Positions 29,301 to 62,031 of a stretch of 64,000 nt of DNA are shown piece by piece. The stretch's first letter is position 1. Every line of letters begins with the position of its first letter. The stretch comes from Strigamia acuminata. Lineage: Eukaryota; Arthropoda; Chilopoda; Geophilomorpha; Linotaeniidae. The DNA lies in contig OX442315.1 of NCBI GenBank assembly GCA_949358305.1, forward strand, positions 23,338,427 to 23,402,426, written 5' to 3'. The translations under genes were made by a program, and so were the position numbers. A model generated the notes under the pieces. That model was not told the DNA's origin. It searched no databases and worked only from the letters and a program-made list of their open reading frames with translations.

Positions 29301-32300
29301 TTTCCGTCTGACACGAGATGAAGATCTGACTGTAATTAAGATTCTATGTTAATTTCTATCCTGTCATCTGCATTAAAGAGACCACAAGCTTAATCCATTT
29401 AGGACTGCCACAAGCTTTCTACTAGCCTACTTGTGCGCTTAATAAACTCATCAACTTATTAGAAACAGAAACGGCATTTCTCTACAAGATCTTTCATTTT
29501 AACATTTCATTTCTTATTAGCCGCGTTAACAGACGATCAAAAGGATATCTCTCTAATCCATTCGGGCTCCCCTGGAATGGGAACGCAGTAATAGCACATT
29601 CGCTCCTCAGTTCTATTTTGACTGGAATCCATGTTGATTTCAATATGCGACTGCGCAATGTAAAACAAGATGTTATTAAAATGGAAAATGACAAAAATAA
29701 TTAAAAATAATCATAATAAATCACCTCGGTTGGTATTACATCTCGAAACCAACTGCATTTTTTCGATATTAAATTCTCTTTTTCATTTTTTGTTTCATAA
29801 ATGCCCAAATAAAATTCGGGATCATACATGTCCTGAATCATACATCGCAGACGAACCAACGAATTTGGCTGCAAATATTCACTTTTGCAGTCATTCAGTG
29901 AAGGAATCTGTAAAAATTCAAAATAAAAATATTAATAAATTTTAATTATAAATTTTCAATGAGATGCAGTAATAATTTGGTTAGCAATAAAAGCGGTTGT
30001 CCAATGCATTTGGAAAACCAAACTTAAAATGTTCCACTCGTATGGTTTATTCATGGTAATTAGATAATGTATCACATAAAAAATGCAAAGTTAAGGAAAG
30101 CTGCACTACAGCATAAGCAGGAACTAGCCGTTTTTCCCTCCCTTTCTAACTCAATTTAGCTTTAAAACTTGGGCCTAATTAGTCAAATAACTGAATGGAT
30201 CAAACAGTTTCCCCGGAAAAATGCGTCTCTTTCTTGTAATACATTATGAATGGATGAAATTTCATCAGTATAAATAAATAGCTTCTTTCTTCATGTTAGT
30301 AGCTAACGTACCCTCACATCAGAATTTACAATTAAGAAATAACTCACGTTATATCCACTGTGAGAATGATAAAGACAACCGATCAAGATGATTGTCTAAA
30401 CTAGACTGATTTATTCATAAAACCTAGAACCAATCATACAAAAGATAGAACAAGTCTCGAAATGACCCCCAGGGGGAGCTATCGCTCACACGACCCCCCT
30501 TTTTGGGTTGTCGCCCTCGACAACAAAACAAAAAATTCAACAATTTCGATACAATGCGATTTTCTAATGCACAACAAGCCTCCGATAACTCCTCGCTCAT
30601 CTTTGTCGAGTCCGTCTCTCCCGTCAAAGTCTCTTCCTGTTCTTCGGCAAAATATCTCTTAAGCTCCAGGTCCTCCAGCCAGCCCAGCTCCAAATTTTCT
30701 CGTACAATCTTGCCCTTGTGACTCGATTCGTCTTCATTTTCATTCGCCTCATTCTTATCGTGTTCCTCGCCTTTCTCGTCGTGTTCCTCACCATATTTCG
30801 CGTCAACTTCATTGAACCCCGAAACCGTTTCGTCGAATTTTGATCTGTCCTCTCCCAAATTCACATTTTCTACGATCGCAACTAGCTCGATTTTCGTAAC
30901 GTCAAGTTCTAAGTTCTCCTTCCCGCATTCCACGCCAAGATCGTCGTCGTTTTCAACAAATTCTTCGTCGTTGTTGTCAAAAATGCCATTTTCGTTTTCA
31001 ACTTGATCGTTTTTTTCAAATTCGTCAACTTCTCCGTCCTTGTCGTCGTCTGCTACGTCCAAAATCTTGTCATATTCCACGACCAGTGACAAACACACGT
31101 TTTCTCGGTTCGCCTCTTTCTCGAATATTGCGCAACCAACAGTCCGAACCTTGCTGCGATCTCTTGAAACATTCATGTCGCCATTCGGTTCCAAAATCAG
31201 CCTCAGACCTTCTTGCCTACGCCAGTCTGTGCCTACGATGATAGGAAAAGGTAAACCTGACGACACTGCTACATTCCTCATTCTCGATTGAATATTGCCA
31301 ATACGAAACGAAATGTCGAGAAATCCATCGATCTCCAACGGGCCATTGACGGAATGAAAACTGGCCCCCGATCTATTCGCTCTTAATTCCGTATTGTCTT
31401 TCAAAAATCTGCCGTCGATAATTGTCAAGTTTGCGCCCGGATCAATCAGCGCCTCAACGTCCGTGTCAAACTCCTCCACACTACACGCAACGACCGTCAA
31501 ATTCATCTCCGGTTTCCTCGTCTTGACAACACAAGCTATAACCTTCTCCGGCGTTTTCTCCGTCGTAACTGCTCCCGCACTTGCCAACAAACAGTCGAAA
31601 GACACGTGTCCGATCTTACCGCACTTAAAACACGTGAGAGTAGATTTATCCATCCCGTATCTATATTGCACGTGACGTTGTGAGTTCTTGTTCGTCGACG
31701 CCGCCGAAAATGCTTCCTTCGTCGATTCCCTCACCACGTCCTCCGCTGCTCGTTTAACTTCGACGTTACTACTATTTTTGTCCGTTGTCTTCACTTTTCT
31801 CGCCCCGTCCAAACCCCTCGCGCGATGTAAAAGCTCCTCAACCGAACCGATGTTGCCAGATGCCAACGGAAACGACACCAACTCCTCGCCAATTCCGCCC
31901 AAAATCATCGACACTCGATCCGATTCACTTATACGGCTCGCACAACGCTCTAGTAAAGTGTTCTTTGAATAAATGTAATGAACGATCGTCTCCGATGCTT
32001 CCAGTTTTCTTTTCTTTTGCATTTCAAAGAATTCGTTCAAGTTCATGCGGCACTTAAATCTATCTTCTAGAGCCCACATCCAGCCCTCCAAACTCGATAT
32101 TTTCTTTCCTTCAGTCTTCTGCCAGTCGCTGGCGTGACCTTCTAGCCTCGTTGCTGCGTTCAATAGCGTCAGATCGTCCGTCCAGGCCGAAAGCTTCGCC
32201 ACGCGTTTTACCTCCTTCACCCACGAATGCACGTTCTCCTTATCGTCGCCCGAAAAAGAGGATATGGCTTTTACGGTGTCGACGGTTGAGTGCATCTGCA

Positions 32301-34335
32301 CCACCGTGGTCGCGGGACCCGTCTGCGAACACTGGGACGCGATGAAGCGGTTCATCACCAAAGTATTTTGTGCCAACAACTCCGAATTCCGCGTCTCCTT
32401 CTCCGCATTACGCGCCTCCGTTTCCGCATTACGCGCCGCCGTCTCCGACTTGTCCCGCATCAACATCTTCATCATCTCGGCCATTTGAAAAACCATCAAT
32501 TCGGCGGACGATGCCCCACTTCCGCCGGCCGGACGTGCCGCCTCCTCCGCTTCCAGTTTCTCCGCCTCCAACCTTTCTTTCGCCAATTCCTCCGCTGACG
32601 TTTTCTCTACGATCTCCGCATCGTCTTCCACCAACTTCTCCGCCGCGATTCTCTCCGCCTCCGCCGCCTCAAACGCAACGATTTCCTTGTTATTTTGCAA
32701 AAGTACCGTCATCAAGTCTTGCTTCAAATTGCTCGTCGATTCCAATCCGCGCCTGTCGATTTCTCCTTTCAAAATCGTCACCGTGAATACGTTCAGGACG
32801 TCCTCGACGACGGACAAAAGCGACGAACGACATCCTTGCAAAATTACCGCCAAATTTTCCGCCATTACGTCCGCCACGTGTTTCGCAAAATTTTCAACAA
32901 CAATCACCGATCTCGTCAACCACCGACAATGATCACCAACAACTTTTCAACTGCTTATATACGTCTCCGTCTCCAAATCGAACGTTATCTGGACGTTTTC
33001 CACGTGTAACGCGCGTCGTCTCCTTCGTCTCCGTCCCCAAATTTCTCCGCAACTCGATTTTCGAAAATGTTAAGCCCACGCGCTCTTCATCCAAATCGCC
33101 GTCATCAATTTCCAACTGTTTCAACTATTTCACCTTCCCCAAAGTCTTTTTATGTCGACTGCGCCATGTGAGAATGATAAAGACAACCGATCAAGATGAT
33201 TGTCTAAACTAGACTGATTTATTCATAAAACCTAGAACCAATCATACAAAAGATAGAACAAGTCTCGAAATGACCCCCAGGGGGAGCTATCGCTCACATC
33301 CACCTTAATTATAAATGTTCAAAGAATATTATCAATATTTATTAAAATGAGATAAAATCTCATTTCTTATTCTCTTCATAAACATGTTTCAGTTTTCAGA
33401 AAACTACATCAAATTGAAATACTGCATTGATTCTCTTAAATATTAACGAACAAAACTCTTAACCATATGTCAAAAATTGAAACAATTTATAATAAAATAT
33501 TGAAAGTTTGCTAATTTAAAAAGGAAGGAAAAAAAATCTTATTTCTTTTCAAAACAAAAAGCTTATTTTCAAACTAAAAAATATCAGTTTGAAACACAAT
33601 TAAACGCTGTTAGCCAAAACCACTCAGCCAGAAGAAGAAAAAACACCACAAGAGGTAAATACGGAGATTGTTTAATGTTTACTAAATTCAACTTTTCTCT
33701 TTGAACTTCAGAAAAAGTTTATTAAGTAAATTTCAAATCCATTACTTGAATGTTTGTGGCAGCAATACACATGCTTTGCTTTTCACGTTTATATTCGATT
33801 AATATTTAATACGAGTATGCGGTATGAGAGCTGCTATTGAAATTACTAATGAACTTTCTAACAACTTCTTGACTAAAGATGGCAGCACTTTCCAGCATGC
33901 AATGGACGAACGGAGGAGCAGTTGAGCAGTTCAAACCAGAAATCTCATCTCATCTCATGTTCCCCGAAACCATACATCGTATTAATTTTTATTTAACGCT
34001 GACGGAATGTTGTTTAAAATACAATAATTAGCATACTAGATAACTTTTCTTTGAGCTTACCGAATAAAATTCATTGGGGTCGTTCAATTTTTGCTTGAAG
34101 AAGTTTAAAACGTTATCCAAAGAGTTCCCTGAATTTTCTGTAAAGAAATTTGTGTGAAGAATTATACATTGCAGGGACAAGCGTGATGAAAAGATGAAAA
34201 TATTGGACTAGGTAATCCAAGACAACACTGCACTAGCAACACGTGTTTCATATATGATTGTGAAAATAAACGATTTTTAATCATACCGAATATGTTCTCC
34301 ACAACTTTTAACGGGTTGTTTTTCCAATCTTCCAT
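16076..34335 (-). CDS. MCMBP: Mini-chromosome maintenance complex-binding protein (complete, 15 exons)
   Basis: Binds MCM helicase subunits and helps assemble or unload MCM complexes around S phase; nuclear (family knowledge). Exons, from the start: 34287-34335, 34061-34137, 29725-29907, 29549-29650, 28869-29088, 27947-28029, 23644-23744, 20391-20548, 19543-19666, 18403-18523, 18110-18275, 17818-17951, 17405-17566, 16710-16798, 16076-16184. They sum to 1,878 nt, about 625 aa, close to the recalled ~640 aa of the human protein. Family landmarks in order: [17 protein letters not shown] at the N terminus, [91 protein letters not shown] and [16 protein letters not shown]. All introns are GT-AG except the fourth, which is AT-AC. 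The second intron holds an LTR element. The start is the first Met, in a promoter region shared with SEC23IP. Confidence 0.95.
16185..17404 (-). other. MCMBP introns 13 and 14
   Basis: Introns 16799-17404 and 16185-16709 surround the exon at 16710-16798. No additional feature was seen. Confidence 0.6.
18524..20390 (-). other. MCMBP introns 8 and 9
   Basis: Introns 18524-19542 and 19667-20390 surround the 124-nt exon at 19543-19666. They contain poly-A tracts near 18531-18571 and nothing else recognisable. Confidence 0.6.
20549..23643 (-). other. MCMBP intron 7 (3.1 kb)
   Basis: AT-rich, with a short TTCCG tandem at 22376-22395 and purine-rich stretches. No gene or mobile element was identified. 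Confidence 0.65.
22376..22395. repeat. TTCCG tandem (4 copies)
   Basis: Four perfect 5-bp units in MCMBP intron 7, followed by a variant TCCCG. Confidence 0.8.
23745..27946 (-). other. MCMBP intron 6 (4.2 kb)
   Basis: AT-rich intron with a TTA tandem near 26347-26386, an AAAT-rich run near 27161-27213, and poly-A and GAA runs around 26610-26650. No exon or transposon was recognised. It lies between the exon ending ACIAK and the exon starting VYDEKEN. Confidence 0.65.
26347..26386. repeat. TTA/ATT microsatellite
   Basis: Trinucleotide repeat with one interruption, in MCMBP intron 6. Confidence 0.85.
28030..28868 (-). other. MCMBP intron 5 (0.84 kb)
   Basis: AT-rich intron between the exons ending ELAHG and beginning REGEN. 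It holds the poly-C tract at 28735-28754 and nothing else recognised. Confidence 0.6.
28735..28754. repeat. Poly-C tract (20 C)
   Basis: Uninterrupted homopolymer in MCMBP intron 5. Its length may be uncertain in assembly. Confidence 0.9.
29089..29548 (-). other. AT-AC (U12-type) intron of MCMBP
   Basis: On the - strand the exon ends at the WIRE codons and the intron opens with ATATCCTTTT, an exact match to the minor-spliceosome AT-AC 5' splice site. The intron ends in CAC, with TTTTCTTAAC (one mismatch to the U12 branch consensus TTCCTTAAC) about 10 nt before it. Both borders are in phase 0. The joined protein reads through with good MCMBP similarity up to the HKKR motif. No GT donor gives an open frame, because a TGA follows within three codons. 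Confidence 0.88.
30359..30490 (-). repeat. 3' LTR (132 bp)
   Basis: Same sequence as 33167-33298, bounded by TG...CA on the + strand. On the - strand it carries AATAAA (30410-30415), a likely poly(A) signal. It also contains the last codons and the stop (30424-30426) of the Gag ORF. Confidence 0.95.
30424..32919 (-). CDS. Gag-like polyprotein with zinc knuckle and retropepsin-like domain (831 aa)
   Basis: Single intact ORF of the LTR element. Residues ~60-190: a long Ala/Glu/Lys-rich region, probably coiled coil. Residues ~230-370: a Retrotrans_gag/PEG10-like capsid region with SDWQKTEG and WALEDRFKC. Residues ~426-442: a CCHC zinc knuckle (C-x2-C-x4-H-x4-C). Residues ~485-565: an aspartic-protease-like region with [12 protein letters not shown] and the C-terminal motif IIVGTDW. 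The active-site triad reads D-P-G rather than the usual D-T/S-G, so activity is uncertain. Residues ~600-790 are strongly acidic (Asp/Glu/Asn). The ORF starts about 250 nt inside the 5' LTR and its stop lies within the 3' LTR. It should build virus-like particles and bind RNA. No polymerase or integrase is encoded. Confidence 0.9.
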   Translation of the reverse strand: MTRSVIVVENFAKHVADVMAENLAVILQGCRSSLLSVVEDVLNVFTVTILKGEIDRRGLESTSNLKQDLMTVLLQNNKEIVAFEAAEAERIAAEKLVEDDAEIVEKTSAEELAKERLEAEKLEAEEAARPAGGSGASSAELMVFQMAEMMKMLMRDKSETAARNAETEARNAEKETRNSELLAQNTLVMNRFIASQCSQTGPATTVVQMHSTVDTVKAISSFSGDDKENVHSWVKEVKRVAKLSAWTDDLTLLNAATRLEGHASDWQKTEGKKISSLEGWMWALEDRFKCRMNLNEFFEMQKKRKLEASETIVHYIYSKNTLLERCASRISESDRVSMILGGIGEELVSFPLASGNIGSVEELLHRARGLDGARKVKTTDKNSSNVEVKRAAEDVVRESTKEAFSAASTNKNSQRHVQYRYGMDKSTLTCFKCGKIGHVSFDCLLASAGAVTTEKTPEKVIACVVKTRKPEMNLTVVACSVEEFDTDVEALIDPGANLTIIDGRFLKDNTELRANRSGASFHSVNGPLEIDGFLDISFRIGNIQSRMRNVAVSSGLPFPIIVGTDWRRQEGLRLILEPNGDMNVSRDRSKVRTVGCAIFEKEANRENVCLSLVVEYDKILDVADDDKDGEVDEFEKNDQVENENGIFDNNDEEFVENDDDLGVECGKENLELDVTKIELVAIVENVNLGEDRSKFDETVSGFNEVDAKYGEEHDEKGEEHDKNEANENEDESSHKGKIVRENLELGWLEDLELKRYFAEEQEETLTGETDSTKMSEELSEACCALENRIVSKLLNFLFCCRGRQPKKGGRVSDSSPWGSFRDLFYLLYDWF
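30491..30507 (-). promoter_or_regulatory. Polypurine tract
   Basis: On the - strand AAAAAGGGGGG plus TCG precedes the 3' LTR, the normal position for plus-strand DNA priming. Confidence 0.75.
33156..33166 (-). promoter_or_regulatory. Primer binding site, tRNA-Ser type
   Basis: Reads TGGCGCAGTCG on the - strand, directly abutting the 5' LTR. It is complementary to a tRNA 3' end of CGACTGCG plus CCA, the serine tRNA acceptor stem. Confidence 0.8.
33167..33298 (-). repeat. 5' LTR (132 bp)
   Basis: Second copy of the terminal repeat, with no difference found by eye from the first. The right-hand target duplicate TCCAC follows at 33299-33303. Confidence 0.95.
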
Positions 34336-46741: not shown

Positions 46742-48191
46742 TTATAAATCCCACATGCTGTTTTGGACCCTCTGCGTTAAAGTATACGACACTTTTCCTT
46801 CTAATGCTTTCTCCTGAACTTTCTGTACAAAATTAAATACAAAAAAGTTTATAGGAACCAAAATTAAAAATTAATTTATACCCGTTTGAAGATTTGTGCC
46901 ATTAATCGGTGAGTTTTTGCTGTTTCTGTTCTGCGTATTTTATCCTTTTGGGTCACGACTTCAGGCAGCACACGGTACAACCTAAACAAAAATCAATTAA
47001 TTTAATTTCATCCTTTTATTAAAAAATATGAATAAATAACCTTTCAGTTTGTTCTCTCATCTCCCTGTGACTGAAGATACGTCTTCGAGGCCTGTGTAAA
47101 ACTTCTAAAGCAAAACAATTATTATAAACTAAATTTTTAAATTATTTTCAATTCTCACCCGTCTCTGGTTCTGGGTTTGTAAACTTCTGTTCCCTCAATC
47201 CAGTCAAATATATATAATTCATCTGAGTTCGATGCTTACGGTCCCTCGCTGCAATTCCTATTTTTTGTTGCCTGGCATGCGACCTCAAAATAAAATCGCT
47301 TTTGAAATAATTAACAGCATCCTGCAGAGTTAACTGCACCGTAGTGGCTCCTTCATTGCCATCAGGTTGAACTGTTCGAGTCACGTTTGAGTGCGATCCA
47401 TCGCCGGGGCCCCTCGTTTGTAACCACGGTTTAGTGTTATCTAAAGGTATAAACCAAGATATTCCCGGTGTAGTATTATTTGGCCGAGAATCGAGGCGAG
47501 GACCAGAATAGACGTCAAAATCGAAATTAGCCGATACAGTCGCATCAATTTTCCTAATCGTCTTTCCCAATACAGGTTTAACAGGTGCATTCTTCTTCCT
47601 ATCTTTTATCTGCATCGGTACGGAGACGAAATAACGATCATCCATTTTTTTTATTTCTTCATCTTGGTGCAAACTGCACACATGATCGTGTCCTCCTTCC
47701 TCTACCCATTGCTTTACGTATGGAATTTTTCTTTTCTCACTATCAAATGTACTTTTATTCCGTATGCTAATTTCTAGCGGTTGATACTTCAAAGGACTTA
47801 ATTTCTTCTTCTTCGCGTTATTTGATTTTTTCTGCGCCTCCATTAATAATTTCTCTACTTTTTCAAGCCATCTAATTTCACGCTGCAAACGCCTCACGTA
47901 ACTACCCCGTTGCTTTTCGATTAAACTCTTCATGTCCGTGGCCTTATCGGCGGTTTGAGAATCAGAACTCGATGTACTTTTTAAAATCGCTGAATTTGAT
48001 TTCAATTCGCTCCATATTCTCGACGGTGTTGTGTCGCTCGATGACAACGTCGAATGATCATTTTCTTCCATTTTTAGGGAACTAAACTTCGCGGATTCAT
48101 CGGATGAATTCCAATTTGCGTGAATAGGAACGTAATGGTGTTTACCCTTCACGCGACTGATTTTCATGAAATTTAAATAATCCTTCGACAT
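46742..48191 (-). CDS. ALMS-motif protein (centriole/basal-body type), complete, 4 coding exons
   Basis: Exons from the start: 47159-48191, 47041-47104, 46882-46981, 46742-46822; 1,278 nt, 425 aa. The C-terminal ~130 residues match the ALMS motif shared by ALMS1, C10orf90 and CEP295: LTLQDAVNYFKSDFILRSH, then RRIFSHREMREQTERLYR, LPEVVTQKDKIRRTE and LMAQIFKR. Proteins with this motif localise to centrioles or basal bodies. The N-terminal ~280 residues are charged, with a predicted coiled segment around SYVRRLQREIRWLEKVEKLL, and are not recognised. The start is the ATG of MSKDYLNF. An open extension further upstream crosses an acceptor-like TTTGTAG at 48202 and is probably intronic. The small size resembles C10orf90 or insect Alms proteins more than vertebrate ALMS1. 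It lies just downstream of the giant Cys-rich gene on the same strand. Confidence 0.87.
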
Positions 48192-48463
48192 CGTGCAACA
48201 CCTACAAATCAAAAAATAAAAAATTTGTAAAATATAAAAAAAGCATAAAATAGCAAAGCAATTTGAATTTCCAAACTTCTGGCACGCGCAAGAAATAAAC
48301 ATACAACTGTGTTTCAAGAAGTTTATTGGCCCTTATAAGTACAAAATCGAGAATTTCCAAAAACCTGTTTCAATGATAACGCATTAATTTTTTTTTCGAG
48401 TTACCTAAATGTATTTACAATTTTTTTTCCATTCACATCACCTAATCCTACATTATCATAGAT

Positions 48464-51400
48464 TTAAGCGCCATCTGTCATACCAGACGACGTCGCATTC
48501 GCTTCAGGTGGTCTGAAAAAATAAAAAGTGCAATTAGTCACGAACCACCGAAATTTCCACCGAAATATTCCAATTTACCTGTCGGGTAAATCGGGCAAAT
48601 TGCAAGTTGACATCAACTGCATACTCGTCACCTTGAAGTCCTCATCTCCGGTCGTGTCGGTTTTCGGTTTGTAAGTGCCCGTGATGTAGAAATTGACTGG
48701 CTTTCCCGTCGACAAATTCTTGACTGCTCCCGCCCCGCTCTCCTCCGCCATCTTGGTCCAATCTGCTGTAGAGTGCACATACTTTAGAACTCCATTAAGA
48801 ATGGCCTTGCGCGTAATCATCGCGCTTGACCCTTCCTCTTCCCCATTCTCAACATAAACGTGCAGATTTGCATCCGTACCACTGGGATCTTTCTGGGGTT
48901 TCCCAAACGCCTGCTTGATGTGCGTCGCGCAGATCTCCGTGAAAGTCCTCTTGGGTGGAAACTCGTCGTCCTCCGCGGGAATTCGCGACGTTATAATCGT
49001 CAACGCTTCTTCGTTCAACCGCTGCAGTGCTTTGATCTCATCTCTGAGTGCCTCCGATATCGCATCAGACTCCTTCCCTTCGACTTCTTCGCCATTCGGC
49101 GCAGGACTGGTCGCCTTTCCCTGACACCCACACGACGATGGAGGCGGGCACGGTTTAGGGCACGGAGGGGGGCACTGTGGAGGGCACGGGCACGGGAGAG
49201 GGCACGACGGAGGGCACGGCATAGCGCACGGCATAGGGCAGGGCGATGGGCACGGCGATGGGCAAGGACAGCCGCCACACGTTGGGCCGCACGGAGGGCC
49301 GCAACAGGGAATTGGTCCAAAGCAAGGTGTAGGGCATCTGGGTAGTTGCGGGTCCCCTCCTGCTGTTAGTTTAGGGCAAGATATTGGAGGTGGCGAGCCG
49401 CCACACCCGCTTGAAGGTTGCTGATCGGCACCCGCCTGGAAAGCAGCGGACGGGCAAGCGTCAGGTAATACACAAGACTTGGCGCAAGGGCCCATGTGTT
49501 TCTGATGTTCTCTCTGTTCGCTGTCGGCGATTTCCAATGTACCGTACGGAGTTTTGTCTAGCGACCTGTACTTTCGGTGCATGTTCCAATCGATTGTTTG
49601 GTCGTCTCCTGAATCACTACTCCTTGCACATTTGTTAGCGCCGCGTGGCGGTGCTGGACATCCTGATGGCATGCTCGGCATTGGACATGGCTTTGGGGAA
49701 GTCTTTGCGGCTGGCATCGGACAAGATGGACCCCCGCATTTCGAATCGCCTGATTTTTCTGCTGGTGGGCAACCTGGTGCTGGGCAAGCTGGTGGTGGAC
49801 AAGCTGGTGGGCAAGGGCCGCACGGATCACAAGGACCACAAGGACCACAAGGACCGCATGGGTCACAAGGACCGCATGGACCACAAGGGCCGCATGGACC
49901 ACAAGGGCCACATGGGCCACAAGGACCGCACGAACCACAGGAAGCTCCACAAGGACCACATGGGCCACAAGAAGCTCCACAAGGACCACATGGGCCACAA
50001 GAAGGTCCACAAGGACCACCAGGACCACAAACGGGACCACAAGGTGGAGCGCAAGGATTTTTTGGACTGCATGGACCACAAGGGCCACAAGGGCCGCAAG
50101 GGCCATAGGGACCACAAGGGCCACAGGGACCGCACGGACCGCAAGGGCCGCAAGGACCTGGTCCACATGGACCGCACGGACCACAAGGGCCGCAAGGACC
50201 ACAAGGGCCGCAAGTACCTGGTCCGCATGGACCGCAAGGCCCTGGCCCACAAGGACCACACGGACCCGGCCCACAAGGACCGCAAGGGCCGCATCCACCT
50301 GGCCCACAAGGCCCGAAAGGACCGCAAGGACTTGGACTTGTGCAAGGACCGCAAAACCCACGAGGACCACAAGGCCCACAAGGCCCGCAAGGCCCGCAAG
50401 GACCGCAAGGGCTGCAAGATCTTGGCCCACAAGGCCCGCAAGGGCCGCAAGAACAAGGACCGCATGAGCCGCACGAACAAGGCCCGCAAGGACCACACGG
50501 GTTACAAGTAATGCAAGGTGGTGGGCAAGGACAACCGGGTGGTGAGCAAGGAATGCAAGGGATTGGACACGGTGCTGGCGGACACGCCTTTAACCCAGGT
50601 GGGCAGCACGGACCTCCAGCACTAATACGCCTCTGAACATCTTTGTACTCGCTTTCATTCTCGTCCATCGCCCCCACGCAGTCTCGATCGACAGTTCTTG
50701 CCTTTCGGTGTTGGAAATTCAATTGGTCATCCGGTTTGCACGAAGCCGTTGGAAAAGGCGGACATGGGCAATTACAAGCACCACCCGCTCCACCAGCGCG
50801 TTTCCGCACCAGTTTCTTCGGATTGGACAAAATCTTATTTCTCAATTCGTTAAACTTATTGTATTGAGCAAACGCCGCATCCATCGGCTGCGACGGTTGA
50901 CATTTAAATCGGTTCCAATTCTCCACCGACGACGTTTCCGGTCTCTGTACTGTCAAATGACCCAAATCGGCTCCTCCACGCAGACACTCTCGTGCTTTAG
51001 GACACGTACCAGGTGGCATCTGAAACGCCACTGGACTCATAGTTGGAAAGTTGTAATGTCGAGACTCGCGATCCTCTGCTGTGCACACATCAGTTTCGCC
51101 AAAACAGGACTTGTCAATACTTCGGAATTTACTGTGGATAACATATTCCACGTCGCACACCTCGGTGATTCCACCGCCTCTACCTCCACCACCGCACGTC
51201 GGTTTCCTCTGCTGTTGACACGCAGGCGGCAAACAAATCGACGGAAATGAATTGGGCATGTCTGGACACTGCGGTGGGCAAGGACAACCGGGACGCCCGC
51301 ATGGTTCCAATCGTTCTTTAAACTCCTTCCGCTCTTTTTCCAATGCGCTTATGGCACCCGAAGGCGCCTTGTCAACAACTCGTTGTTTCCACTTGTAATC

Positions 51401-54400
51401 CAGATCCGCATTAGCGGGCGCCGACATACCGCCTCGAAGACGTCCTTCAATCGGTCGAAAAAAGATGCCGTTGTCCATTCCACCCGGTAACTCGCATCCT
51501 TTAGGTGTGGTCCTCCTCCTCGTGTTTCCGTTTCCGAACGTTGGTTTGCAAATATTCTCGCATTCTTGAGCCTTGCCAACGGATGGGTCGCACTTCGGCT
51601 CCGCGCATGGATCGCATTTTGGTTCGCATTTTGGTTCGCAATCGATCGGGCAAGGATTTGGATTCTTTGGATCATCGTTCATGGTCATGCATCCAATCAG
51701 TCTGCATTCGCGAGTCGCACCCGTTCCCGAGCACCGATCTGGGCACTCTTCTTTCTCTTTTTTCTCCTTCTCCTTCTTCTCCTCTTTGTTGCCACATTTG
51801 TCGGCGCCGGAAGACAGACGGTGCACCATGTCGCTCGTCATGTGTTCAGCGTCGGCGTCGGGCGATAACTCGATGTGTGGAAGTGGAATTGCGCCTTTTT
51901 GGGGCGCAACGTAGTCCTCGGTCTCGTATTGATGGCGAAGTCCGCTCAAAACCGAATCGGTATCCATGGTAACGTCCTGAGTTCTGCCCGACATCATGGA
52001 CGTTTTATCGTCGTGGTAAGACGTCTTGGGCGACATTTTATCTTCTTGAATTGGGTAATGACTGTGTTCGTGGTCGTGTTCGTGTTCGTGTTCATGAGCA
52101 GACACGGCGTCGTGATACGACTGTTTCTCCTCGTGAACGGACGTCTTTTCCTCCTGAGCAACGAATTGCTCGTAAGTTGAAACTCTTTCTTCGTGAGGCG
52201 ACAATGGATCGACCAACGATGTTTTGGGAATCTTCTCCAAATCATGCGCCAATTTCAATTCGTGGCTCGTTTCGGCCACCGATTCGGGTAAATGTTGAGA
52301 CTCCAGTTCGCTCGCCTTCTTCGATTCGCCCATTTTTTCAGTTTTCGTAAAATTTCCAGGTGACGGTTCAACGGGCCCCATTTCCGGTGGCGGCGATATG
52401 TGTTCAGCTAAAACACGATCCACTTGAGCTCTGTGCTCTCCGTGCGTGTGCTCGGGCTGTATATTTTCGATCAGATGTTCACCCAACACGTGGTCATAAG
52501 GGCCCATCACAGCATCGTGTTCTCTCCCGACTGCCTCCATCGACACGTCCGTCTCTCCTCCTTCGACCGTTTTCGACACATCGCTAGCCTCGGACTCCGC
52601 CTTTCGCGTTTCCTTGTCGTGTTTGTGGGACCTCTTTTCGTGCTTGTCCTTCTTCCTGCTTTTCTTTTCGCTCTCGCCGCCAATTTTCACTTCATCGGTC
52701 GCCGTGGTATCCGCGGTCTTTTTCTTCTGCGTCGGAATGTCGGCGCCACCTCGAAGACGGTCTTCCAACTCCTCCGCGCTGTCAACTTTCGAACTGGACA
52801 AAATTCGTTTGCAAATATTGCTCATTTTCCTCCGTATTGCATTCGGGCACACGGGCCCATCAGCCTCGCATTCTTCACTCGACTTGGCAGCCAAGTTTGC
52901 ACTTTTATTGCACTCAGATGAGGACCCTCTCCGGGTCGGGATGGAAATTTCTTCTTTTTTCGAATCGAGCAAAACGTTTTCAGTCGTTACAAAATCGACG
53001 TCCACTTTATTCGTTGGACCTCCGCCACTGCGTCTGACTCGTCTATCGGAGCCGCCATCCATTCTTTTTCCTTTCGCGTCAGGTTTTGCGCATTTATCTT
53101 CACATTTTGGCGGTGGCGGCGGCGGGCACGGCGGCGGCGGCGGCGGCGGGCACGGCGGTGGTGGGCACGCCGGTTCGGGTGGTGGACAAGGCGGAGGCGG
53201 GCAAGGGGGTGGGCAAGGAGGTTCGGGAGGCAGTGGACAAGGTGGTGGTGGAGGCGGACATGATTTATCGCCTTTCTTATCATCCTTCACAGGTCCCTCT
53301 TCCTTTTTGCCGTCCTTTTTCGGTTTGTCGGACCCACCTCGCAAACGATCGCACGGGTCGCACGCATCGGATTCAAACTTCACTTGACCCTCGTCGCTGG
53401 CACCGCACGGACCGCACGGTCGCGGCGCATGTGCGGCGCAGCATTTCGGCGCAGCATTTCGATTCGCTTCCTCGAGCAACAAATAAGCGCCTGGGCCTCC
53501 AATAAGACGACATTCGAAACATTCATTTTCCTCTTCCTTCTTCTCCTTACAAAACAGCCCGGTCATCGCGCAAATTTTTTCTTGAAACGTCTTTTTCTCC
53601 GGCGTTTCGAAACATGGATCCGTCACCCTGCAACACCCCGTATGGTCGTGTTTCGCCGTTTTATCTTCCTTATTCGGTTTTTCCGCACATGGGTCTTCCG
53701 TCATGCATTTGCCGCACGGAAACTCGGTATTCCTCTTCGTCTCCTTCGGCGAACAGTCTTCGCTGGCCCGCACATTGTCCGCGCCCGATCTCATCCGAAT
53801 CGCAAATCTGTTCGTATCACACCCACTAAACATCCTCCCGTTTTCATGTCTGTCACACACGCAGCATTCGGTTGGATACCGGTGATGCCCGTGCGGTGGC
53901 GGCGGTTCCGTGTTCTGCTCTTCTCTTGGACAAGTATAATTCAATTCATCGCATGGATGGCAAGGGTCATCTTCGGCACATGGTTGAGGAAGAACTAATA
54001 AACACGGGTTTGCAGGGGGGCATGGACATGGGCATGGGTTTGGACACGGGCATGGGTTTGCACACGGGCATGGGTTTGGGCAGGTGCATGAAGCTGGACA
54101 AGGGCATGTACTTGGGCAAGGGCACGAACCTTGAGGTTTTATAGTTCCACGTAAACTGTCCGAAGCAGGTTCGGCAGTAGTGGCCGCTGGTTTTCCGGCG
54201 GGCGCACGTTTAGAAGGAGCGGGGGCGGGAATGCCGCCTTCGTCTGCAGGGGGTAGCGATGGGCACCACATGCCCGTCAACTTGCAAATTAACGAGGGTT
54301 TCGGTTCCGATTCCGGTACTGCAGCAGCTTCTTCCTTTTCCTTCTTTTTCTTGCCGTGACTCAAAAAATTCATACCGGTGTCGGATCCTGCGCTCAAACG

Positions 54401-57400
54401 TTCGTCGACACTCTTTCCACCCTTTTTCGAATCCGGTTTCGCATCGTCGCAAGGCGGTTCGGGTGGCGGCGGCGGCGGCGGCGGCGGGGGCTTGATTTCG
54501 CACTTTGGCTCAGGTGGAAGGTCGCATTTGGGCTCGGGCGGAGGCGGTGGCGGCGGCGGGTCACATTTGTCCCCACTGTGATCGGCGTTCTTTGCGTCCG
54601 CCTTCGAATCTTCGCCTTTCTTCGGTTTGTCAGACCCCGATTTCATTCGCCCCTTGTCGTCACCTTTCGGTTCCGGTGGTTTCGTAGGACCACCATCGCA
54701 TTTCGCTACATCGCATTTCGGTTTTGGCGGGGGGGTGTCGCATTTTGGCTCGGGTGGCGGCGGAGGAGACGGTGGACATTCGCCTTCTCCCACGGTTTTC
54801 GCTTCGGGAGTCTTGGGGTTGGGGGGCGGCTTTTTATCACCCTTGTCACTCTTGTCAGCACCAGCTCGCAATCTTCCACCAAATCCATCGGATCCACCAT
54901 CCAAACGAGTTCCTTTGTCTTGACCGCCACCTTTACGATCTTTTTTATCGTCTTTTTTGTCGTCCTTCTTGCTACATCCACCACATTCTGGAGGTTTATA
55001 AATTATATCCGGTGCCTGAATGGTTGGTGTTGAACAGTCGTTTTTACAACAAACGGGTGGTGCCGTAATGGTTGGTTTGGTACAGTCGTCTTTACAACAA
55101 ACGGGTGGCGCGGTAACGGTTGGTTTACTGCAGTCATCTGGGCACTGCGTTTTTGGTTTGCAACATTTGTCACTTCCACCACCCAGCCGGGCTGTCTTTT
55201 TGCAGTTGCACGTGCTCGCTCCTCGGCATTCTGCAGGTTTAAAGCAGCACACGTCTGGCGCGGTTCTAAGCGGCTTGGAGCAGCAACTGTCATACTTGGC
55301 AGGGCAATCGCAGTTCGATTTGCCACAACATTTAGCAGGCTGGCCACAACAAACATCGGGTGCACTCACTTTTGGTTGCGAGCAGCAACTGTCGTACTTG
55401 GCAGTGCAGTCGCAGTTCGATTTGCCACAACATTTAGCAGGCTGGCGACAACAAACATCGGGCGCAGTTATTTTCGGTTGCGAGCAGCAACTGTCGTACT
55501 TGGCAGTGCAGTCGCACTTCGATTTGCCACAACATTTAGCAGGCTGGCGACAACAAGGATCGGGCGCAGTTATGAGAGGTCTTGAACAACAACTATCGTA
55601 AATCATGCAGCCGCAGCTTTCTTTGCCGCAACATTTGACGGGCGTCCTGCAGCTCACATCGGGTGCAGTGATGGTGGGCCTCGAACAACAAGTGTCATAA
55701 ACCATGCAGCCGCAACTTTCTTTACCGCAGCATTTCATCGGCGTTCGACAACTGACATCTGGTGCCGTAATGGTTGGTCGTTTGCAATCGTCCTTCTTGC
55801 AACAACTCTTCGCACAACCTGGTGGACAACATGGCGGCGGTGGACAACATGATGGCGGCGGACAACAAGGCGGCGGAGAAGGTGGACAACATTTAGGTGG
55901 TGGGCAACAATCTTTGGGTGGGCAGCAATCTTTGGGCAATGGTGGACAACATTTAGGTGGTGGTGGACAACAATCTTTAGGTGGGCAACAATCTTTGGGT
56001 GATGGTGGACAACATTTAGGTGGAGGTGGACAACAATCTTTGGGTGATGGTGGACAACATTTAGGTGGGAGTGGACAACAATCTTTGGGTGGGCATTTAG
56101 GTGGTGGGCAACATTTAGGTGGTGGGCAACAATCTTTGGGTGGGCAACATTTAGGTGGTATACAGCAATCGTTGGGTGGGCAACAATTTGTGGGTGGGCA
56201 ACATTTAGGTGGTATGCAGCAATCTTTGGGTGGGCAACAATCCGTGGGTGGGCAACATTTAGGTGGTATGCAGCAATCTTTAGGTGGGCAACATTTAGGT
56301 GGTATGCAGCAATCTTTGGGTGGGCAACAATCTGTGGGTGGGCAACATTTAGGTGGTATGCAGCAATCTTTGGGTGGGCAACAATCTGTGGGTGGGCAAC
56401 ATTTAGGTGGTATGCAGCAATCTGTGGGTGGGCAACATTTAGGTGGTATGCAACAATCTTTGGGTGGACAACACTTTGGTGGTAGTGGACAACAATCATT
56501 GGGTAGACAACACTTTGGTGGAATTATACAACAATCTTTTGGTGGCAGTGGACAACAATCTTTGGGCGGACAACACTTTGGTGGTAATGGACAACAAGGC
56601 GTTGGCGGCGGGCAACATTTTGGTGGACAAGGTGGTGGCGAAGGTGGGCAACATGGTGGTTTTGGTAGTGGTGGACAACAAAGCGTTGGTGGAGGTGGGC
56701 AACAAGGTTTCTGTGGTACCAGATAACTCGGTGGTACCAGACAACACGGCGATGGTAGGCAACAAGGTTTTGGTGGTTCCGGACAACACGGCGATGGTGG
56801 GCAACAAGGTTTTGGTGGCTCCGGACAACACGGCGGTGGTGGACACGGTTTAGGCGGTAATGAACAAAAAAGTGGTGGCGGCGGCGGACAACAAAGTGAT
56901 GCTTGCGGACAACAATCTGATGGCGGACAACACGGTGGTGGGCACGGTTTAGGTGGCGGGCAACAAGGTGGTGGCGGACAACATGATTTTGGCGGCGTGG
57001 GGCAACAAGGCGATGGCGGGCAACATGGTTTAGGTGGCAGAGGGCAACAAGGCGGTGGCGGGCAACAAGGCGGTGGCGGGCAACAAGGCGGTGGCGGGCA
57101 ACACGGTTTAGGTGGCGGTGGGCAACAAGACGGCGGTGGCGGACAACAGGGTTGCGCTAGTGGTGGACAACAAGGCGATGGACAACATGATTCCTTCACT
57201 TCAACAGGTCCAGTCAATCTGCAACAGTCGTCGGCTCCCTTCCTCGGATCCAAGCAAGGGACACTGCAGAGAACATTCGGTGTGCCGCAAGGATTACAAC
57301 ACGGCGATTCCCTTACAAGAATAGGACCAGAAAGTTTACAGCACTCGTTGGTTAGTCGACTCTTTGGTTCGTACGTGACAGTGCATCCAGGATTGCTTTC

Positions 57401-60400
57401 TACGCAGCAACACTCGCCCGACGGCTTGGTGCAAACGCAACAGCAACTTTCAATCGGAATAATCTGGCCGCGCAAAGAACAATCTTCGTCATCCTCCGGA
57501 CAAACCGGTGGCGGTTCTTTCTTGCATTCAGGCTCACTGCAAGGCGCAGCAGGTGGCGAAACACTCACGGTCGTACCGGGGCAAAAAATGCCCGTTAACT
57601 TGCAAAATTTCTCTTGTATACTGGCTTTCGTGAGCCTTTTAAATGGTTTACCACACACGTCTTCACTACAAACATCCTTATCGTCATCGCATTTCCTGTC
57701 GTGTTTACACTCGTGCCAGTGTTCGGACGTGCACTTGTCCGGTGCATCCGCTCCCGATTTCAATCTTTTCTTATCCTTATCACTCTTCTCTTCAGCTTGA
57801 GCCGAGGTGTCATCTTTCGGCGGCGGACAAGGCGGCGGAGGTGGCGGCGGACAAGGCGGACATGCAGGTGGTGGACACGGAGGCGGTGGACATGGAGGCG
57901 GTGGACAACACGGAGGCGGTGGACACGGAGGCGGTGGACACGCCGGTGGTGGTGGTGGTGGTGGCGGCGGCGGCGGACACGGAGGTGGCGGCGGACACGG
58001 GGGGCATGGTTTTTCCTTCGGAGGTGGCGGGGGGCACGGAGGCGGGCATGGAGGCGGGGGGCACGGAGGCGGAGGGCACGGAGGCGGGGGGCAAGCTGGT
58101 GCACAAGGATCATCTTTTTTGCCCTTGTCAGTTTTCTTATCAGCACCAGCTCTCAGTCGTTCATTCGAATTGAAAGCCTGAGGTCCGTTTTGACAACAAT
58201 TTTGATTACTCTTGTTGGTGTCGCAGGTTCCACCCGAACAGCATTTTTCCTCCTCCTTGGGTTCGGTTTCCTTTGGCTTCTCAACCCGCGTTGGATCGTC
58301 CGAGCCAGCTGATAACCGCTCTGCATGAACGTCAGAACCCGCACATAAGTTGTACTTGTTATTTTCTGGGCAACACGGGCCAGGAATGCAACGTATGCGA
58401 TCGTATTGCTCCTTCTCGCACACATCCAAATCGCCCTTCGAACTCTTGTCTACCGTTCTTTCCCTCTTGTGTTGGGCGTAGTACTCCACTCCAGGTAAAA
58501 ATGCCCTGTCGCACCTGCCCTCACCAGGCGGGTCTTCGCACCGACTTTTCGCAGTGTCTTTTGGACAGCTAACACATTTATCCGAGCCCGCAGTAAGTCT
58601 TTCTCTAGCTGGTTCTTGAGTCTCCAATTTCGGTTCGTCCATATAAATTGAATCGCAGCCTCCCCCGCACCTGGGTTTGGCGTCACCGTCCTTCGCGGGA
58701 TCCTCGCAACACTTCAAAAACTGATCTCCACCACCCAAAGCGACGGCAGCTTTCGCACCGGGACACTTGGTAAAAGTGTCACCCCGCTGATCCGGTTCAG
58801 GCTGCTGCGTTTTCTTGGCGCCCGCACGTTGACATGGTGGTTTAGGGGCCGGCTCGGTTATTGGCCACGGTGGACCAGCGGATCCATCTTGTCTAGTTTC
58901 AGGATCAATTTTGCAAACACATTTCCTCGAATCAGTCTGTTCCTTTTCGATCAAATCAACGTCACCATTGTCTGATTTGTCAATAGTCCTCGTCTTCGTG
59001 TGCGATTTCGCATACTCCTCCTTCTCATCCGGCAACTTGGGTCGTTTAGTGGCCTCGGATCTTGGTCCGCACGGACACATCGGATATGCGTAAGGCGACG
59101 GCATGTTTTGACAAAATTCGGTTCCTTCCTTCTCCACAACGTCAAACAATCCAGCGGGCGTTTTATCAAAAGCGCGTACTCTCTTCGCAGAAGCGCATTC
59201 CGATTCGAGTCTCTCAAATGTTTCCAATGGTTTGCACGGTGGTGACGGACTCCTTGGTGGCGCAAACGACCTCTCGCATCGTTTTCGTTGGCTCTCTATA
59301 ACATTCAATTCGCCACAATTGCTTTTGTCGATACTCCTAGACTTCTTGTCAATCGTGTATTCCCCATTGTCCGCTGGACAGGGCGGTGGACACGAACACG
59401 GAAACGGTGTACACGGCGAGTACGTTCCACAAGGGGAGGCAAGAGGATACGGTGGTGAACTGTAATATGTAGACGACGCTCCGCAAGGGCCTGGGCATCC
59501 CCCCGGTGTTACGCAAGCTCCACCAGGTCCGCACGGTCCATTAGGACCATATCGGTATGGCCCGCAAGGCCCGGAAGTCGGTCCGCAGGGTCCGCATGGA
59601 CCACATGGTCCCGGTCCACAAGGTCCGCAAGGTCCGCAGGGTCCAGGTCCACAAGGCCCACAGGGTCCACAAGATCCGAAAGGTCCACAAGGTCCGCATC
59701 CGGCATCGCAACCACCACAAGGTCGCGGACTGCATGGTCTACACGGTCCGCACGGTCCACATGGTGCGCAAGGAGGCACAGTCAATGTAAATGCCATAGA
59801 TGTTGCAGGTGGGCACGGAGCGCACGGTCCACATGGTCCACACGGCGAACAAGGATCGCAAGGGTGGCAATTGTACGTATTCGGACAAAATCCACACGAC
59901 GCGCACGAGCCACACGGATTGCACGGCGAGCACGGATTACACGGTAAACAAGGTGCACATGGTCGCGGCATGGGAGCACACACGGTTCCGGGTCCATCAG
60001 CTGGTCTTCCGCTTCTGTGAGGCGCGGAGCATGGTGGAGGCGAACATGGTGGTGCTGGGCAAGGACCCGATCGTCTGCGGTCCTCTCTATCTTCCATGGC
60101 TCTAATATTGATGGATCCCGCCGGTGTTTTGTCCATCGAACGATATTTGCATTGTTGGTATTTCTCCGCATCGTACGGCGCTGGTGGAGTCAATTGGCCG
60201 ACGCAAACCGATTTTCGTGCGGCAGGTCCAGAAGCAACTGCCGTTGGACAAACTGCTTCCGCATTGGGTCGTGAACTTCGTTTAAACTCGCGTTGATCGT
60301 CATTCGACTGAGAATAAACCCCAGCAACATTCTCAACGTTGTACGCCTGCTTGTGATGTCCAAAAATCTCCTCGCTCTGAAACGCAGTGTTCCAATACGT

Positions 60401-61681
60401 ACTGTACTGTTGATTCTCAGCCCTCAGCGCTGGATTTCTCATCTCCAACGGGTACATGTCGCATACTTGAAGCTGAATCAACGGGAAAGGCATGAATTGA
60501 GGCGGTCCAGATCGTCTCTTCAAATCTCGTTCTTGAACTTGTCGGCGCTCGAAGCAAGCCTCGTTCGCAGCCGCCTTGGCAAAACTGTGATGTCGGTTGT
60601 GATGTTGGTAAAATTCCTCGCCCGATGTCAAAGGACACCCGTTGTCGTACTGAAGATTTCGGTTGTGCGACGGGCACGATCGGCACGGCCTACAAATCGG
60701 ATTGGATTGACGTCGGAAATTTCGTTCGTCGCATTGTCGAATCTCGCCGCATCCGGTGGGAGTCACATCTATCATCTGTTGCTTCTTGTTGTGAGTGAAC
60801 ACCTCGGCGGTTCCCAAACACGTCTCGCCAGTGCGTTGCTCCAAAATGAACCTCTCGCATTCGTTCGTGTTGTGCTGCTCGCAATTGTCGACCAAACACA
60901 CCTGTCGGAAGTTGTTGTCGCGAACATAATGTACATTTTCGGTGTCAGAACAGCATAAATAGTCTCTCACGCCTCCAACTCGGCATTGAATGTCACATAC
61001 GAGATTACAAATATTCGATCCGTGGTCGCCTAGATTCACCTTCTCGTCCAATGTGCGTGGGCCAACCAGGGTCGGGGTTCGACAAGGCAGGGGTCTCGGG
61101 CAGCAAACGGGGCCGCAAGGTGCGCTGCAAGGCGGGTAAAAGTTACAAGGATTGCATGGGTTGCAAGGCGGGCAAACACTGCAAGGGTCGCACGGATTAC
61201 AAACTGGGGGACATTGGGGTCCTAAAATGTCTTTGTCGTCATGAAGTTGGTGCATAACGTAAGGATCGATCACTTCGTTTATTTCGGTCACGTTTGGTGG
61301 GCAGTGGTAAGCCGATTGGGGTCGGTCACTCCCAGCTGAAGGATGCGTAGAGTCCCCTTTGCATGGTTCGCTGCATTGTTTATCCTTTTTGGTCGAGTCC
61401 TTGTCCTTGTCATCGTCGGGCATGGGTTGATAGAGAGGTGGGTAGTCTGCATCTGGAAAGTTGTCGATGGTGTATTCTGTCGCGGCGATGGGCGATTTGA
61501 CCACCTCGCATGTTCCTCCCGCAACCATGCGGAATTGTGGAATGTCTTTAGATCGCCATTGTGATGGGGAAACAGTCGGAGATATGTCGGGCGAAGTGCT
61601 TGTGATTACGGTCAAATCCTCTACTTCGTTGTCCTTGAGTAGGGTTGGTGATGTGTGCAGATTTGCAAGTTTTAAATGCAT
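48464..61681 (-). CDS. Giant Cys/Pro/Gly-rich repeat protein (about 4,383 aa), function unknown
   Basis: One 13.1-kb exon (61681-48579) plus a short last exon (48512-48464), joined at AG/GTAAAT and TTTTCAG. Without the junction the ORF stops directly after the donor. The start ATG is 2 nt after an acceptor (TTTTTAG), and an in-frame TGA precedes it in the likely 5' UTR exon. No signal peptide or membrane segment is seen, so it is probably intracellular. Order by approximate residue: 150-200 CNPC/CPPC; 570-760 CGP repeats; 776-1090 modules with R-S-I-D-K-S-x-x-G; 1190-1290 PPPPC; 1450-1960 CCPP(K) repeats; 1964-2164 tandem 33-34-residue Cys repeats; 2164-2880 Lys/Pro-rich with RLxxGSDK motifs; 2960-3280 acidic/His-rich; 3430-3680 more D-K modules; 3690-3960 CGP repeats; 4100-4185 CPxPCP; 4200-4383 Cys-poor domain. 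CGP and CCPPK repeats recall sperm-tail Mst(3)CGP/ODF1 and SMCP, so a flagellar structural role is inferred only. A cuticle-type structural protein is less likely. Confidence 0.85.
49790..50600 (-). repeat. CGP-repeat block 2 (in giant gene)
   Basis: About 270 residues of CGP triplets (residues about 3694-3964), longer and purer than block 1. It also contains GASCGPC units spaced by about nine residues. Confidence 0.85.
55190..55790 (-). repeat. Six tandem 33-34-residue Cys repeats (in giant gene)
   Basis: Each unit follows the pattern ITAPDVCC, then RxPxKCCGK, then CxC, then YDSCCS, with 8-9 Cys per unit. The units diverge toward the C terminus, where the KCCGK part decays. Shorter TVTAPPVCC units follow to about 55020. 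Confidence 0.88.
55800..57320 (-). repeat. CCPP(K) tandem repeats / coding minisatellite
   Basis: About 500 residues of CCPPPP, then [16 protein letters not shown] and CIPPKCC units. Between about 56100 and 56480 the DNA is a minisatellite of 36- and 54-bp units (12 or 18 codons), always in frame. Similar in style to mammalian SMCP. Confidence 0.85.
57805..58105 (-). repeat. Polyproline-Cys block (in giant gene)
   Basis: About 100 residues of CPPPP and PPC units (residues about 1192-1292), following an RLRAGADK motif and preceding an RLKSGAD motif. Confidence 0.8.
59395..59970 (-). repeat. CGP-repeat block 1 (in giant gene)
   Basis: Codes for about 190 residues dominated by C-G-P triplets with occasional SPC, GPG and tyrosine interruptions (residues about 570-762). 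The triplet period is the same as in Mst(3)CGP sperm-tail proteins. Confidence 0.85.
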
Positions 61682-61682
61682 T

Positions 61683-62031
61683 CTAAAAATATTTAAAAAT
61701 AAATTAATTTCTACAAAAAAATTACAAAATCGAAATTAAATACTCAATACTCAAACCTTCTTATAGTATTAATATTTCTAGTGTTTAAATTAAGAATCTT
61801 AAACAAAATTTAAAAATCAACATTGTAATGGCTCCGAAAATTTTAACGCGATTGGTATGTTCTAAAGATGAAAGCTTATTAAAGCGCGAGATTCGTTACC
61901 TAGCAACAGTGCATGCGAATGGTTATGGTTACCTAGGCGAATAGAATTAACATTTTATAAACTATTAAAATTTAACTTTTTTTAATATACGTATTATAAA
62001 ATAAGAAATATATAAGGAAAAATATACTTAC
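61683..62031 (-). other. Likely 5' UTR intron of the giant gene
   Basis: On the - strand a strong donor, CAA/GTAAGTAT, lies at 62031, and the acceptor TTTTTAG is next to the start codon. Splicing would put an in-frame TGA a few codons before the ATG. Inferred from splice signals only. Confidence 0.55.

Follow-up and report, generated by a model that had tools for sequence, protein, structure and literature searches.

Most descriptions of cysteine-rich sperm-tail repeats concern small proteins. The Mst(3)CGP proteins, such as Mst84D and Mst87F, are small and built on a single motif, and SMCP, a small mammalian protein with CCPP(K) repeats, has a mitochondrial location in sperm. Here, we describe a gene of a very different scale. 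In a stretch of 64,000 nucleotides from the centipede Strigamia acuminata (contig OX442315.1; C3:23338427-23402426 in our numbering), hereafter called the window, the minus strand carries a reading frame for a Cys- and Pro-rich protein of 4,383 residues, in which CGP and CCPP repeats are combined with other modules. By analogy with the described systems, we consider it on balance probable that this giant chain is a structural protein of the cell interior, cross-linked through its thiols, with the sperm tail as its most likely site.

According to passages of PMC10645079, the Mst(3)CGP family of Drosophila is defined by repeated Cys-Gly-Pro, its genes are male-specific or testis-specific and are transcribed in spermatocytes, and the axoneme and the nebenkern derivatives are disturbed when the Mst84D genes are lost. 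Passages of PMC3439415 describe, for Drosophila, the TCE element (ACATCNAAATTT) at +28 of the transcript. ODF1/HSPB10 is an HSP20 protein with C-X-P repeats and a part of the mammalian outer dense fibers (PMC8913478, in part), and the S-LAPs, many of which have lost their active site, are constituents of the mitochondrial (paracrystalline) material of Drosophila sperm (passages of PMC3078892 and PMC6388916). As for SMCP, the passages of PMC3823879 did not show the motif. Among the literature matches listed, which covered few subscription papers, there was no giant Cys-rich insect sperm protein.

The Gene and Its Reading Frame

The frame begins with the ATG at 61681 and continues uninterrupted for 4,368 codons to a stop at 48575-48577. 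This stop lies within a 66-base segment, 48513-48578, that starts with GT and ends with AG, and excision of the segment gives exactly 4,383 residues, with TAA at 48464-48466. The predicted structure is a main coding exon (48579-61681; residues 1-4367 plus two bases), a 66-base intron, and a last coding exon (48464-48512), followed by AATAAA, a possible polyadenylation signal, at 48322-48327; these features, like all others of the gene given below, are on the minus strand. The chain would have a mass of 464 kDa and a pI of 6.6, and would contain 558 Cys and 848 Pro; its Cys codons are divided between TGC (282) and TGT (276). The first-pass annotation of this DNA had proposed a near-single-exon frame of 13.1 kb for 4,383 residues, lying in AT-rich surroundings and lacking a signal peptide, and all of this is borne out. 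The GC content, taken in 1-kb steps, is 0.42-0.60 within the gene, and mostly 0.27-0.43, never above 0.51, in the rest of the window.

Could such a frame be no gene at all, but a chance stop-free stretch of tandem GC-rich DNA? Open runs of up to 357 codons do occur in the other frames of the region. However, these five frames contain 67-189 stops each, and in 200 first-order Markov copies of the gene DNA the longest open run had a mean of 180 codons and a maximum of 310, against the 4,368 found here. The heavy synonymous variation in the repeats and the retention of diverged modules, both described in the next section, point the same way, so that this explanation has a negligible chance of being correct. 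We conclude that the locus is a true gene, whose product is a giant protein rich in Cys and Pro.

No signal-peptide-like or membrane-helix-like hydrophobic segment is present in the chain: the highest 19-residue Kyte-Doolittle mean is 0.87, the first residues are hydrophilic, and by hydropathy the N-terminal region (residues 1-160; 61202-61681) has nothing resembling a signal peptide. Secreted materials are nevertheless commonly built of giant Cys-, Pro-, and Gly-rich chains, and the protein might instead be a cross-linked extracellular structural protein (of eggshell, cement, cuticle, or a silk-like material) whose signal peptide is on an unrecognized upstream exon. An upstream exon as such is likely, because splice-acceptor-like sites are found immediately 5' of the ATG at 61681. 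However, when the nearest plausible donor, the GT at 62031, which was the only one tried, is spliced to either of two acceptors, a stop remains in frame ahead of the ATG. Since similar repeats are also carried in this genome by HSP20 and LACTB proteins, both of intracellular families, we regard secretion as quite unlikely.

Repeats and Modular Anatomy

The motifs of the chain were counted against 500 shuffles, in which residues were permuted within 100-residue windows. CGP is present in 75 copies (shuffle mean 11.6, maximum 22) and CCPP in 45 (mean 11.9, maximum 21). A third motif, R[LM]x[AGS]G[SAG]D, hereafter RLxGGxD, has 14 copies between residues 1028 and 3294 (51800-58600), and never arose in the shuffles (mean and maximum 0). 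Less frequent are C-x-[LM][ST]G, with five copies (mean 0.12, maximum 3), and [TS]AP[DP], with eight (mean 0.95, maximum 5). The mixture of CGP and CCPPK repeats announced by the first-pass annotation stands as far as CGP and CCPP are concerned, both being far above the shuffles; exact CCPPK, however, was overstated, as there are only nine copies, and CCPP with other neighbors is more frequent. CCPPKD also occurs nine times. The 75 CGP copies are written with 26 distinct 9-mers and the 45 CCPP copies with 15 distinct 12-mers; because so many synonymous codons are used, the repeats are maintained in the protein sequence and do not reduce to tandem DNA. The longest pure CGP run in the chain is seven.

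Between these repeats is a module of 35 residues, here called DK, with a consensus of about EYxxHxKxRxxDKSxxGxxDVxEKEQ. It is present in nine copies, five ahead of the central blocks and four behind. When each copy is scored with a leave-one-out profile, the nine reach 17.2-41.7 bits, while the highest of 534 background windows reaches 5.2; the coordinates below are those of the initial profile.

Reading from the N-terminus, DK module 1 (residues 505-539; 60065-60169) is followed by the first CNPC/CGP block (residues 568-701; 59579-59980), and then by DK modules 2 (773-807; 59261-59365), 3 (827-861; 59099-59203), 4 (889-923; 58913-59017), and 5 (1066-1100; 58382-58486). The central blocks, delimited by motif positions, are a first CPPPP block (residues 1197-1272; 57866-58093), the CCPP/CCPPKD block (1499-1950; 55832-57187), a series of six [TS]APD repeats, each 33-34 residues long (about 1966-2160; 55202-55786), and a second CPPPP block (2808-2858; 53108-53260). 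Beyond them lie DK modules 6 (3425-3459; 51305-51409), 7 (3511-3545; 51047-51151), and 8 (3653-3687; 50621-50725), the second, long CGP block (3726-3956; 49814-50506), DK module 9 (4030-4064; 49490-49594), and a Cys-poor C-terminal domain (4198-4383; 48464-49090, predicted intron included). Judged by eye, the arrangement seems roughly that of a mirror image, in which CGP and DK occupy the two ends and CPPP and RLxGGxD the interior, with CCPP in between.

Homology Searches

With the whole giant chain, no Pfam family was matched at E values up to 1, which, as far as Pfam goes, agrees with the view of the first-pass annotation that the architecture belongs to no described family. One weak candidate was discarded: Head_binding (Pfam) for the C-terminal piece, at E 0.033, is under the cut-off and at chance level. 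NCBIfam gave only a chance-level match for the C-terminal piece. No significant match was returned by the PDB for the C-terminal domain, for a profile of eight DK modules, or for the N-terminal 560 residues. The AlphaFold model of the C-terminal domain, made from the single sequence, has a mean pLDDT (predicted local distance difference test) of 37 and is unusable. In the genome, no second convincing copy of the C-terminal domain or of two DK-containing regions was found; a weak match on C9 to the DK region (E 0.15) is absent among the matches of the DK profile and was discarded. The protein library, queried with the C-terminal domain and with the complete chain, gave no match; these negatives say nothing about novelty, because the neighboring gene with an ALMS motif, taken as a presumed animal control, was equally empty.

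The Same Repeats at Other Loci

In the genome (237.5 Mb), three consecutive CGP codon triplets are found at five loci, the giant gene among them (84 overlapping matches; none with the reversed-pattern control), and CCPP followed after two residues by a second CCPP at three, again including the giant gene (30 matches; control 0). Six loci in total have one pattern or the other, and two of the five that are not the giant gene can be named, as HSP20 and LACTB.

The first of these, at C1:45094080-45095165 (C1:45.094 Mb; L037:9081 into L038), ends in an HSP20 domain (Pfam, E 1.2e-9). Five exons are predicted from GT-AG sites; the start would be MSGCCPPPSPCC, with MSGCCPPP as the putative beginning of the protein, and the small exons include two near-identical ones of 27 bases, each encoding VCCPPPPKP. 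Two further HSP20 frames lie beside this gene, at L037:5711-6274 and 7656-8012 on the minus strand (E 1.8e-10 and 4.4e-11), and neither has a CCPP array.

The second, at C3:29616544-29619426 (C3:29.617 Mb; L013:4545-7427), is LACTB-like: two of its exons match human LACTB (PDB 7ulw) with E values of 3.1e-52 and 1.9e-23. One insert, with CCPPKD (four copies) and CGP, follows directly after SGIRHYDK, and another, rich in CPPPCP, lies between stretches matching residues 222-324 and 335-446 of the 7ulw chain. Of the LACTB motifs named in passages of PMC9815587, the catalytic SISK is replaced by SISN and HTG by HSG, while YST is retained; the product looks, from its sequence, like a structural pseudoenzyme. 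A CCPP-bearing N-terminal frame, L013:6873-7427, has no Pfam match and is assigned to this gene by position alone.

In the LACTB-like insert, the longest pure CGP run is 20, and this raises another question: are these runs collagen? They can be read as Gly-X-Y, and the giant protein, or the LACTB-like one, would then be a collagen-type trimer with Gly-Pro-Cys triple helices. Pfam Collagen does score 32.8 bits on the insert (cut-off 27.2), and the PDB returned collagen alpha-2(I) for it (E 1.5e-12) and BclA for the CGP block of the giant protein (E 1.8e-7). However, these matches depend on the periodicity of Gly and Pro and are judged a coincidence of composition; Pfam Collagen is absent from the giant chain, where pure runs are short, and an intracellular trimer formed without hydroxylation would be unlikely. 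A collagen is thus very improbable here.

The remaining three loci encode CGP proteins. Those at C1:51.10 Mb (L012) and C8:10.14 Mb (L016) are copies of one gene on separate chromosomes, their main collinear pieces being 92-97% identical, and both contain repeated RLAGGGDK and KGPYGQ, the former in common with the giant protein. The third, at C6:7413866-7417282 (C6:7.414 Mb; L014:7867 into L015:1382), is a Cys-rich CGP frame of 1,139 residues with 176 Cys and RxxAGG motifs.

A Proposed Role

How might such a chain work? Its extended Pro-rich segments would carry Cys at regular spacing, in the form of CGP, CCPP, CPPP, and TAPDVCC. The Cys-poor parts, namely the nine DK modules that surround the CGP blocks, the fourteen RLxGGxD motifs in the middle of the chain, and the unique C-terminal domain, may serve for docking, anchoring the chain to partners. 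During maturation, the thiols would be oxidized to disulfides, or bound to metal, locking chain and partners together in an insoluble fiber or sheath. The most likely site would be the sperm tail: its dense fibers, its accessory bodies, or the material that surrounds the mitochondrial derivative. We infer this site, and with it the tissue, from the role of Mst(3)CGP in the testis, the place of ODF1 in the outer dense fibers, and the presence of S-LAPs in the mitochondrial material of fly sperm.

An intracellular, Cys-cross-linked protein of the sperm tail was also the proposal of the first-pass annotation. It is supported in part, and gains indirectly, again by analogy, from the CCPP and CGP repeats on HSP20 and LACTB in the same genome, both being intracellular families, LACTB mitochondrial in man. 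Several observations weigh on the other side. The sperm link remains one of analogy, because neither family is sperm-specific; no Pfam family is matched by the scanned pieces of the three loci at C1:51.10, C8:10.14, and C6:7.414 Mb, two pieces in the case of the last; and DK modules turned up neither in the other repeat genes fetched nor, when the genome was queried with protein, anywhere else in it. The Drosophila TCE, allowing up to one mismatch, has four matches in the window (shuffle mean 5.6), none near the giant gene, and resemblance in composition and repeats can be convergent.

A thiol-rich intracellular protein might also have another task, in somatic cilia, as a metal or redox store, or as the cytoskeletal armor of another tissue. 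Metal binding would be served by the same chemistry, and HSPB10 has been reported in kidney collecting ducts too (PMC8913478, in part). Sperm tails are, however, the best-known setting of CGP and ODF1-type repeats, and an ordered series of modules seems to fit a scaffold better than a store; we hold such a task to be unlikely.

If the giant protein is indeed a component of the sperm tail, a broader picture can be drawn, which we offer tentatively and think doubtful as a whole. A shared vocabulary of thiol-proline cross-linking may have been inserted in this lineage into unrelated proteins: a giant scaffold of roughly mirror-like order, an HSP20 chaperone as an independently built analogue of ODF1, and a probably catalytically dead LACTB from a filament-forming mitochondrial family. 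All of them would be co-oxidized into one composite material of the sperm tail and mitochondrial derivative, with the giant chain as its organizing strand. Little is known about the composition of the accessory material in insect sperm, and a modular chain of 464 kDa, together with repeats on a chaperone and within an enzyme-derived protein, would, if the proposal is true, provide a concrete parts list for a disulfide-hardened sperm tail. The notable point is that one repeat vocabulary is found on unrelated folds.

Genomic Neighborhood

The ALMS motif characterizes a centrosome/basal-body family. A gene matching it (E 4e-5; 24.4 bits, cut-off 27) occupies 47148-48191 of the window, downstream of the giant gene and on the same strand, with its first ATG about 130 bases past the AATAAA of the latter. 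Farther away, at 30355-33298, is an open gag-like frame of 840 residues, in which a CCHC knuckle scores above the cut-off and aspartyl-protease matches below it; it is flanked by direct repeats of 136 bases, 99.3% identical, and frame and repeats together look like a young element of the long terminal repeat type. As for the rest of the genome, TTAGG telomere arrays fill three of the 15 contig-end stretches fetched (L047, L049, and L055), as befits an arthropod, and one other is N at both ends.

Comparison with Known Systems

How does the giant protein compare with the systems from which its role is argued? Its likeness to Mst(3)CGP, ODF1, and SMCP is one of repeat type only. It shares with Mst(3)CGP the repeated CGP, well in excess of the shuffles, but its size of 4,383 residues, its CCPP, CPPP, TAPDVCC, DK, and RLxGGxD modules, and the lack of a nearby TCE place it outside that family. 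With ODF1/HSPB10 it has Cys-X-Pro repeats in common, and differs in being devoid of the HSP20 (alpha-crystallin) domain by Pfam, so that it is no member of that group either. With SMCP, the link consists of CCPP and CCPPK, and no homology is claimed beyond this low-complexity motif.

Of the two named loci of the same genome, the LACTB-like gene shares CCPP, CCPPKD, and CGP blocks with the giant gene, but its product has a beta-lactamase fold, and no homology between the two is seen outside the repeats. The HSP20 gene has the same domain combination as ODF1, with its repeats N-terminal here and C-terminal in ODF1. If the proposed role is correct, convergence with mammalian ODF1 and with the S-LAPs of Drosophila could be examined in these genes.

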